DNA of 64,000 nt from assembly GCF_003014475.1 (NCBI RefSeq), contig NZ_PYGJ01000001.1, forward strand, positions 558,001-622,000, in the 5' to 3' direction. Position 1 is the first letter of the stretch. Each line of letters starts with the position of its first letter. Source of the stretch: Shimia abyssi (GTDB taxonomy: Bacteria > Pseudomonadota > Alphaproteobacteria > Rhodobacterales > Rhodobacteraceae). This document shows positions 21,547 through 23,930 of the stretch, piece after piece. A program made the position numbers and the translations under genes. The notes under the pieces are model-generated. The model ran no database searches and was not told the origin of the DNA. It worked only from the letters and a program-made list of their open reading frames with translations.

Positions 21547-21972
21547 AGGTAACCGTTTCCGGCACGCGCCAGCTGGAACGACGTTTGGGCGACTGTATGC
21601 GCGCGGCTAGCTTTTGCGTTGGCCGAACTCGTGATGTTGATGCTCAAACAAGGATGGGCGGCGCTGTTTGGCGGGCTTTTGCTGATCGGGATGCTGGTGA
21701 CAAACCGGATCTGGCAGGCGGATTGGTTAATTGCGCGCTATGATGCGCTGTCGCTTTATGCGCTGGGGTTGCAAGGACTATTTCTGGCGACACGCGTGGT
21801 ATCGCGGCGCGAGGCGCGGGTGATATTGTTGTTTCATCTGACCGGCACGGCGATGGAAGTCTTCAAGGTTAAGGCGGGCAGTTGGGCCTATCCTGGTGAT
21901 GGGGTCATGAAACTGTGGGGTGTGCCGCTGTTTTCAGGCTTTATGTGTACTGACCTGCAAACATACTCGGCT

Positions 21973-22045
21973 CGACTTGCAATCATCGCGATTTTGGGCC
22001 CGAATTATCTGACGCTATCGAGGGGTATAAACCCGGATTATTTGC
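21973..22045 (+). repeat. left imperfect inverted repeat of the cassette
   Basis: A 73-base block starting CGACTTGCAATCATCG and ending GGATTATTTGC pairs with the complement of 23033-23105. A second, shorter copy of the end motif (GACCTGCAAACAT, then GGCTCGA) lies just outside at 21952-21974. This end therefore has at least two related binding-site-like units. Confidence 0.7.
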
Positions 22046-22305
22046 AACCAGCCTGCAATCAAAGGGCCGAACCCAGATTACGTGCGAGTTGGATTTGGGG
22101 CGTGTTTTCAAATGCCTACGATTGTTTGATTTCCCGCCCGCAATTTGTGTGACTGAACATAGATATTCAGATGAGATTTCAGGACAGGATTATTCAGGGT
22201 CTCTGGACGCGGGTTTGGCGGCGGCATGGCGTCTAGGAATCCCCCGTTTGTCAAACCCAAGTAGAGCGGCTCAGACCCCGTGCCTGTGAGTCACGGGATG
22301 AGAGT

Positions 22306-22902
22306 TTAATACAAGGTTTCACGATAGCGCCGCTCAGCATACGACTGCTCGGTGGATGCAACTTCAATTTTCGAGTGATCTTGGATCATCTCGTACAGTG
22401 AAGGTATCGGGCGGTCGGTGGGCCACGTTTCTGGACGCCACAAACCTGCACGCATCGGAGCCTTGCCGCAGTGTGTGAATATCTCCTCAGCCGTGACTCT
22501 GAGCACGGTTTTAGGACTTCGTCCATTTACCTTGAACTCATCGCAAAGGTTTGGATTATCGCTGATTTCCGCGATGCCATTTACGCGAAGTGTCTCCGTA
22601 ACAGACGGAATCATAAAGCAAATGGCCACTTTTGGGTGCGCCAGTATGTTCAGCAATCCATCAATCCGGTTGTTTCCGGGGCGATCTGGTATCAGTAGTG
22701 TTTTCTCGTTTTCGATTTTAACAAACCCAGCCGGATCGCCCTTCGGGGACACATCCAGATTTGCGCCGTCAGAGGTCGCCAGAACGAGAAAAGTAGAGTG
22801 TTCAATGAATTGGCGGCAATGTTTGTCAAAATGTGAGATTGCCTTCGCTGCGGCGTGAGGCGAAACATCTCCGTAAATTCTGCGTAGCTTTTCCGGGGTC
22901 AA
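22306..22902 (-). CDS. PPOX-class FMN-binding protein (cassette passenger)
   Basis: A protein of about 198 residues is related to pyridoxamine 5'-phosphate oxidases, most like the DR_2398 type of FMN-dependent PPOX proteins. Features are FIEHSTFLVLATSD (the first barrel strands), DVSPKGDPAGFV, the phosphate-binding DRPGNNRIDGLLNIL, and the C-terminal HCGKAPMRAGLWRPETW. I prefer the TTG at 22902, which has AAGGAG at 8 bases, over the GTG at 22911 without spacing; both give the same frame. It is the only gene in the inserted cassette. Its substrate is unknown; such proteins often reduce or detoxify small heterocycles. Confidence 0.85.
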   Translation of the reverse strand: MTPEKLRRIYGDVSPHAAAKAISHFDKHCRQFIEHSTFLVLATSDGANLDVSPKGDPAGFVKIENEKTLLIPDRPGNNRIDGLLNILAHPKVAICFMIPSVTETLRVNGIAEISDNPNLCDEFKVNGRSPKTVLRVTAEEIFTHCGKAPMRAGLWRPETWPTDRPIPSLYEMIQDHSKIEVASTEQSYAERRYRETLY

Positions 22903-23032
22903 AATCTGCACTCCTTGTCATGGCCTCTTTTCAACACAATGGATACCAAGAAAGCCTCGTTGCCGTCGTTCGCATTTAATGTGAGCCAGAGCAGATGATT
23001 GCCAGCCCGTCGCAAATAATCTGAGCTCATTC

Positions 23033-23105
23033 GCAGCTAATCTGGGTTTGCCCCCTGCGATAGATGCAAATAATTCGAGCCGAAAATCACGATGTTTGCA
23101 AGTCG
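23033..23105 (-). repeat. right imperfect inverted repeat of the cassette
   Basis: This is the complementary partner of 21973-22045. On the plus strand it also shows repeated units GCAAATAATCTGAGC (from 23011), GCAGCTAATCTGGG (from 23033) and GCAAATAATTCGAGCC (from 23066). This is a spacing pattern expected for several transposase-binding sites. Confidence 0.65.
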
Positions 23106-23555
23106 CTACATTAATGTTTGCTTCGGTCGGGCCGTACTTGGCGCGCGTGATCCGGCTGTTTGAGATGCGGTTTGCGCCGTTTCCCCCGCTCTGGTTTGCC
23201 ATGGCGCTGGCCTGTGCGATTTACGTGAATTTCTTTGCGCGCCACTTTGTGGCGGACATGCGCGCTTTGCGGTTTGTGGCCACCGTGGCGCTATTCTGGC
23301 GCACGCGGATCTGGTTTTGCATCGGGGTGAATTGGTATTGGATGCCCCTGCCCGTCGCTGCGTTCCTGTTCAGCATCTTTTTGTCGCTGGCCAAGAATGT
23401 GGGCACGGCCACGCGCGTTTGGTTGTATCACGGACAGGGGGCTTCAGACTGGGTGAGTCTGGCCAAGATGGGGTCTTGGTATCTGTTGCTGTTTGTAAGT
23501 TTCACAACCGTGACGGTGGTGTTTCGTGAAGCGCTGATGCGCGATGCGTGGTGCC

Positions 23556-23930
23556 CTAAATCAACCCGCGCCACATCAGAAACGCAACCAACAGCACGAC
23601 CAGCGCAATCAGGTTGAAGCTGAGCGCACCCAACGTACCAAGTATTGCACCTTTGCGACGGTCGGCGCGGTCGACCGCGTCCAAGTCTTGCTTGAGGGTT
23701 TCATAGGCTGCCGCGACGCGGGTCATGTCCCCCTGAAGCATCAGTTTGGGGTGCCCGGCCTGCGCCTGAGCATCCACCAACACCTTGGCACTGGTATGGG
23801 CGCGTTTTGGCAGGCGGCGACCGATTTTGCGCATCGCTATATCCAGCTTGTCCGCCTTGATGCCAAACTTCTCATGGATCAGGTCCAACAGGGCGCGGGT
23901 TTTGCGGGACAGGTCTTTTTCATCGATCAT
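23556..23930 (-). CDS. small C-terminally anchored membrane protein
   Basis: The 124-residue protein has a charged N-terminal part (IHEKFGIKADKLDIAMRKIGRRLPKR..TRVAAAYETLKQDLDAVDRADRRKG). One C-terminal membrane helix (LGTLGALSFNLIALVVLLVAFLMW, about 97-121) follows. The topology suggests a cytoplasmic head with a tail anchor. I do not recognise the family; similar proteins are conserved hypotheticals in roseobacters. Its 3' end overlaps the disrupted DUF817 frame by about 60 bases, tail to tail. It is divergent from the hydrolase at 24007. Confidence 0.75.
   Translation of the reverse strand: MIDEKDLSRKTRALLDLIHEKFGIKADKLDIAMRKIGRRLPKRAHTSAKVLVDAQAQAGHPKLMLQGDMTRVAAAYETLKQDLDAVDRADRRKGAILGTLGALSFNLIALVVLLVAFLMWRGLI

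Follow-up and report, generated by a model that had tools for sequence, protein, structure and literature searches.

The mobile insertion cassette MIC231 of Bacillus cereus reportedly has the short ends of an IS4-family element. In the qnrS2 cassette of Aeromonas, as described in the available part of PMC5444012, a passenger lies between transposable-element ends with 22-bp repeats and without a transposase, and movement in trans is presumed. The Tn3-derived TIMEs and IS101 are non-autonomous with conserved ends, and IS101 keeps both its ends and a resolution site (available part of PMC4133298). Most members of the IS481 family make 6-bp duplications (PMC10045372, in the portion available), and the IS481-type element TnRErm46, which carries cargo, duplicates the TA-centred sequence NCTAGN (PMC6794481, likewise in part). 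According to the accessible portion of PMC11406308, Tn5053/Tn402 and Tn7-like transposons combine a DDE transposase with an AAA+ ATPase, Tn5053 also has a recombinase for cointegrates, and TGT/ACA ends occur. We analyzed a window of 64,000 nucleotides from Shimia abyssi containing an insertion that resembles each of these systems in part.

The insertion interrupts a DUF817 gene after codon 109 of an open reading frame starting at 21619. In a Pfam search the two DUF817 parts proved to be complementary halves of PF05675, with positions 1-107 of the family at 21619-21945 and positions 107-237 at 23111-23578. The 5′ part of the split gene thus occupies 21619-21945 (E 8.3e-37) and the 3′ part runs from 23117 to the end of its open reading frame at 23617 (E 7.1e-40), both on the forward strand. 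These parts were the sole matches in a genome search, which found no second DUF817 copy, and the splitting of DUF817 by an insert, claimed in an earlier note on this DNA, is upheld. When 21945 is joined to 23117, keeping one duplication copy, SGFM|FASVG is restored in frame; the in-frame rejoining stated earlier is therefore borne out, whereas the deletion of 21947-23117 given for it is replaced by the 21945/23117 join. The left flank had a DNA match in 9 of the 24 other genomes of the genus. The earlier note had suggested checking relatives for absence of the insertion, and all nine of these same-genus relatives, the ones in which the DNA search found DUF817, are continuous there and represent empty sites with TTCATG or a similar sequence at the target position.

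We place the element at 21946-23110, where it reads TGT...ACA over 1165 bp, beginning with TGTACTGACCTGCAAACAT at 21946 and finishing with GCAAGTCGCTACA at 23110. This corrects the previous limits of 21947-23113. Its G+C content is 50% versus 57.8% in the flanks. The target duplication (no strand assigned) consists of a left copy TTTATG (NNTANN) at 21940-21945 and a right copy TTAATG at 23111-23116, which are identical at five of six bases; its placement follows the family-wide TA rule described below and the empty sites of the relatives. The ATGT formerly seen flanking both sides is really the ATG of this 6-bp duplication plus the following T.

At both ends, TGCAANCAT / GATTATNTGCGA-type units form arrays. 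Inverted-repeat arms of 89 nt at 21957-22045 and 23033-23121 are 74% complementary, and local alignment of the two 165-bp ends scored 41.5, whereas none of 1000 dinucleotide shuffles exceeded 20.5. The long imperfect inverted repeats noticed earlier are thus real, and the guess of TGT..ACA ends with multiple repeated units fits the ends found. On the forward strand, the left end (21946-22090) comprises the TGT and a unit array adjoining the inner module discussed below; nhmmer matched 21946-22048 with an E value of 1.4e-28, the window left end having belonged to the profile's training set, and detected a further repeat at 22058-22088. The right end (ACA) lies on the reverse strand at 23028-23110 and was matched at E 2.6e-20 by a profile that excluded it. 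This end is a short-form array, missing, between two TGCAANCAT units, a stretch of ∼22 bp that is present in the left end and in nearly all other aligned ends. We considered whether the short form is a damaging deletion, which is uncertain since ends shortened by ∼22 bp also occur at two unrelated places in two other family genomes (L125:211-3855 and L174:6663), where they adjoin TA-centred flanks. The transposase at L125 has stop codons. The right end of the window element is 92% identical to an end at L104 and 75% identical to its own left partner. A promoter and terminator scan of the window element gave no more than was found in shuffles.

The only credible gene inside the element encodes an MSMEG_1061-type FMN-dependent PPOX flavoprotein on the reverse strand (22306-22911; 201 aa counted from a GTG, with a start a few codons later possible). 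It matches TIGR04025 with 249.3 bits (cut-off 170) and PF01243 with E 2.8e-17, which agrees with the earlier description of a PPOX-class FMN-binding protein as the sole gene inside. The nearest relatives of this protein in the family sample (G097 and G294, 73% identity) showed no such ends within ∼1.5 kb on each side.

Searches with the ends led to a wider family. In DNA searches with the right end, 2 of the 25 genomes from the genus and 3 of the 394 from the family gave matches, the window's own genome being counted in both. The end pattern recovered 15 stretches in GTDB genomes, from Leisingera, Ruegeria, Sulfitobacter, Pseudaestuariivita, Boseongicola, Tateyamaria, Rhodobacter, a Gemmatimonadetes MAG and two cyanobacterial MAGs, and a query with a Ruegeria end matched 147 plasmid records, 116 of them from Pseudomonas and others from Ruegeria, Phaeobacter, Actibacterium, Paracoccus, Methylobacter and cyanobacteria. 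We treated several weak matches to the ends (E 0.008-0.1) as noise, those in G009, G010, G017 and G021 and a third one in the window's own genome. Four contigs of one Boseongicola MAG (L062, L064, L066 and L067) break ∼55 bases inside an end sequence, which suggests several copies in that genome.

Both ends could be paired in 18 elements, 7 with a transposase and 11 transposase-free. TA occupies the middle two of the outer six flank bases (positions 3-4) at 58 of 64 distinct flanks, against 3.2% in the background nearby; this count drops seven ends not starting with TGT and loci duplicating others, and in it the flanks of one element's two ends are not independent. The preference agrees with the NCTAGN target of TnRErm46 and with the 6-bp duplications of the IS481 family. 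Perfect duplications were found in 8 of the 18 pairs, being 6 bp long in seven (L025, L103, L106, L107, L109, L123 and L127) and 7 bp in L167, an element from the window's genus flanked by CTTAGCC. The 6-bp ones around transposase-free elements are GCTAAC (L107), TGTAGA (L109), CGTATC (L103) and CGTAGA (L123). The window and L168 match at five of six bases, and the flanks of another eight pairs clearly mismatch (L026, L057, L061, L088, L105, L121, L122 and L125).

The occurrence of the same ends around a transposase, which the earlier note had proposed looking for, was found in seven complete elements (L025, L057, L105, L106, L121, L125 and L127). In L025, from a Rhodobacter MAG and seen also as L059, the ends are 3644 bp apart with the perfect duplication CGTAGC, and the only credible genes between them encode a serine recombinase of 187 aa, an IS481-like DDE protein of 549 aa and an AAA ATPase of 324 aa. 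The DDE protein matches the NCBIfam IS481 model NF033577 at E 1.6e-22 but with 80.4 bits, under the cut-off of 224, and in Pfam it has only weak rve and Mu-transpos_C_2 matches. A search of solved-structure sequences returned weak retroviral-integrase matches only (best E 0.014), and its structure prediction was poor (pLDDT 50). The ATPase has AAA_22 and AAA_16 domains and matched ABC-type P-loop ATPases among solved-structure sequences; its model, of modest quality (pLDDT 67.8), retrieved ORC/Cdc6 first and TnsC at ranks 6, 8, 10 and 15. IS21 was our first guess from the repeated end units; the gene content of L025 ruled against it, and the NCBIfam match to IS21 reached only E 1.5e-8, far under the cut-off. 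Judged by these genes, the family would work like a DDE-plus-AAA transposon with a resolvase, and we refrain from assigning it to IS481, Tn7 or Tn5053. A search of literature listings and accessible passages, which did not extend to ISfinder or most subscription journals, turned up no account of this transposon family or of its cassettes, and the available portions of PMC9952335, PMC3934969, PMC10969869 and PMC3189936 hold no description of the family. In a Pseudomonas element table in the accessible part of PMC8895235, an IS481 transposase appears close to a recombinase and an AAA ATPase.

Several autonomous copies were observed in settings of their own. Nearly identical elements (L105:1778-6139 and L106:1777-6139) lie on Actibacterium and Paracoccus plasmids, respectively, of different families, and their recombinase and UPF0149 proteins have common accessions, which points to recent transfer. 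L106 lies between two pieces annotated as DNA methylases, with the perfect duplication AGTAGA and UPF0149 as cargo. On plasmid pP88_b of Phaeobacter inhibens P88, L127:1422-7539 has the perfect duplication ACTAAC and carries as cargo an ammonium transporter with a fused chemoreceptor domain. A 3656-bp Gemmatimonadetes MAG contig (L068:1-3656) corresponds nearly exactly to one autonomous element and probably represents collapsed copies or misbinning. Ruegeria sp. HKCCD8929 holds an autonomous element whose left end was not seen (L070) together with four other end matches in one genome.

Six of the 11 transposase-free pairs, the window element with its PPOX gene among them, carry passengers inside one clean end pair. 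The other five are L107 in Phaeobacter (a 253-aa protein), L109 in Leisingera (a DUF3800 protein and a 389-aa protein), L103 in Ruegeria (an amidohydrolase) and, in the window's genus, L167 (a 262-aa protein) and L168 (7360 bp, with three open reading frames tested and no Pfam family). The same ends with different passengers, which the earlier note had proposed as a further check, therefore do exist. No mutual similarity was found at E 0.01 among 11 passenger and cargo proteins of eight elements, and Pfam searches of 10 passenger or cargo proteins gave no family for five and only a weak sub-threshold match for a sixth. Anti-phage defence was considered as a role for passengers and set aside, as eight proteins had no PADLOC match. 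Eight partnerless ends (L058, L063, L065, L101, L102, L104, L108 and L115) were left with passengers unclaimed; the DNA fetched around them showed no transposition protein at E 0.001, save for a distant recombinase match beside the end of L108.

The five remaining transposase-free pairs are gene-free: L026:9987-10310 (324 bp, with the same inner module as the window element), L061:6110-6459 (350 bp), L088 (452 bp), and L122:3001-3611 and L123:1188-1798 (611 bp each). Plasmids of Pseudomonas syringae carry the 611-bp member, and on pPMA4326D its duplication, CGTAGA, is perfect. L026 in Pseudaestuariivita rosea and L061 in Sulfitobacter algicola both follow the same AraC-type gene, and that flank is the same and the other flank different, as though recombination had taken place at the element. 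The existence of gene-free members allows that a miniature like L026 or L123 entered DUF817 and that the PPOX gene arrived later by another route. We regard this as highly improbable, given that a repeat search of the window element did not reveal a further set of ends enclosing the PPOX gene and that six transposase-free pairs hold their passengers within one clean end pair.

Beside one end, nine loci have in common a module of ∼170 bp with no evident gene. In the window it lies at 22083-22257 on the reverse strand and is 80% identical over 175 bp to L063; the other loci are L065, L101, L102, L107, L109, L011/L168 and L026. Five of the nine are complete transposase-free elements, and L063, L065, L101 and L102 show one end each. 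A profile built from the nine loci was run against eight autonomous loci, and in four of them it matched between the end and the recombinase gene in the same orientation (L070 at E 1.7e-5, L068 at 1.2e-4, L025 at 1.1e-3 and L106 at 0.012). The best of these, L070, is itself partly cassette-like, and the independent matches are the weaker three (L068, L025 and L106). In the other four autonomous loci no match reached E 0.012 (L125 0.032, L127 0.3, L057 and L121 none). Because the usual place of a resolvase site is immediately upstream of its resolvase gene, position together with this weak similarity suggests that the inner module is probably a res site.

Taken together, these data make it very probable that the window element is a mobile insertion cassette of the IS481-like/AAA+/serine-recombinase family that was moved in trans, with cointegrates resolved at res. 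The passenger-cassette reading of the earlier note is thereby supported, both by the empty sites in relatives and by the occurrence of the same ends elsewhere with a transposase or with other passengers. The PPOX gene would be its single passenger, enclosed by two long ends, one of them with a res-like site immediately on its inner side. From the sequences we infer that an autonomous element supplied the transposase and ATPase; these would have attached to the repeated units of the left and right ends and placed the cassette in a TA-centred hexamer, giving the 6-bp duplication. A serine recombinase is encoded by the autonomous elements, and for this reason a cointegrate is the probable intermediate of transposition, with the recombinase resolving it at res; the ends and res would then be all that a passenger needs in cis.

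An autonomous PPOX-carrying transposon could instead have inserted and then lost its transposition genes; the cassette would then have taken shape at this site, without ever having moved in that form. The mismatch in the duplication and the missing transposase in this genome are compatible with such a history, as are autonomous relatives with cargo (the ammonium transporter of L127 and UPF0149 of L106) and decayed autonomous copies (the stop codons in the L125 transposase and the broken transposase frame of L105). However, tblastn at E 0.01 revealed no remnant of the three transposition proteins in the window element; in the same search none of the 11 transposase-free elements matched, as compared with five of five autonomous ones. 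Furthermore, other elements without a transposase have the same order of end, res-like module, passenger and end, together with perfect duplications and passengers of unrelated kinds (L107 and L109), indicating that transposase-free forms do spread. We therefore consider deletion in place unlikely.

Some findings weigh against a cassette moved in trans, namely the one mismatch in its duplication, the clearly mismatching flanks of eight of the 18 pairs, the weakness of the similarity behind the res assignment and the lack of a helper. No matching transposase was present in any of the 25 genus genomes, its own included, at E 1e-20. In the family sample the transposase query matched 3 of 394 genomes, compared with end matches at E 0.01, some of them weak, in 12 of 394, so that helpers are rarer than ends. 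The window copy is probably without a helper now, a stranded insertion.

The res-like module may also act as a trading post, in which the serine recombinase joins the res sites of different elements, swapping passengers and ends and assembling new cassettes. We advance this only tentatively and think it rather doubtful. In Ruegeria, the first 335 or so bases of L070 are cassette-like (88–96% to L063) and the sequence beyond about 360–385 is autonomous-like, with the switch inside the putative res region. The far end of L107 is 96% identical to L063 and 88% to its own partner, the two ends of a cassette are often closer to ends of other elements than to each other, and unrelated passengers adjoin a common inner module. 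Ordinary homologous recombination would leave the same traces as exchange at res.

With one kind of ends around many different passenger genes, the family is little described. Its end matches extend over Rhodobacterales, Pseudomonas, Methylobacter and cyanobacteria, and it appears to feed transposase-free cassettes whose genes are mostly unknown. Annotation displays only an isolated gene, and such cassettes and their gene traffic can escape notice. They can be searched for simply with the end profile, the res-like module and the TA-centred 6-bp rule, and through the module passenger exchange becomes a testable question; should the trading-post reading be true, the family would in effect be a resolvase-driven gene-exchange system.

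The family is like IS481 in its IS481-like DDE transposase, TGT..ACA ends and 6-bp TA-centred duplication, and unlike it in having an AAA+ ATPase and a serine recombinase alongside a transposase of ∼549 aa that falls under the NCBIfam cut-off. With Tn5053/Tn402 and Tn7-like transposons it shares the DDE and AAA+ pairing and the TGT/ACA ends, and with Tn5053 the recombinase. The target duplication of Tn5053/Tn402 is 5 bp, in contrast to the 6 or 7 bp seen in eight perfect pairs here. Tn5053/Tn402 have TniQ, and no TniQ-like gene was noticed among the credible genes of L025; with regard to both Tn7-like elements and Tn5053, the matches of the transposase here are weak and confined to rve and Mu-transpos_C_2. 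With its ends and res, a cassette would hold all that is needed in cis for replicative transposition and resolution, a point discussed for IS101 and the TIMEs in the available part of PMC4133298; the TIMEs have 38-bp Tn3-type ends, while the window element has TGT..ACA, an IS481-like family match and a TA-centred 6-bp duplication. Nor is it a MITE, since MITEs have no coding sequence and are usually <500 bp, whereas the window element has 1165 bp and a 201-aa gene. Like mobile insertion cassettes, it has transposon-related ends, a passenger, no transposase, and a duplication with an empty site in relatives. Unlike MIC231 and the qnrS2 cassette, its ends are ∼100–165 bp unit arrays of a three-gene transposon, and the res-like module is kept.
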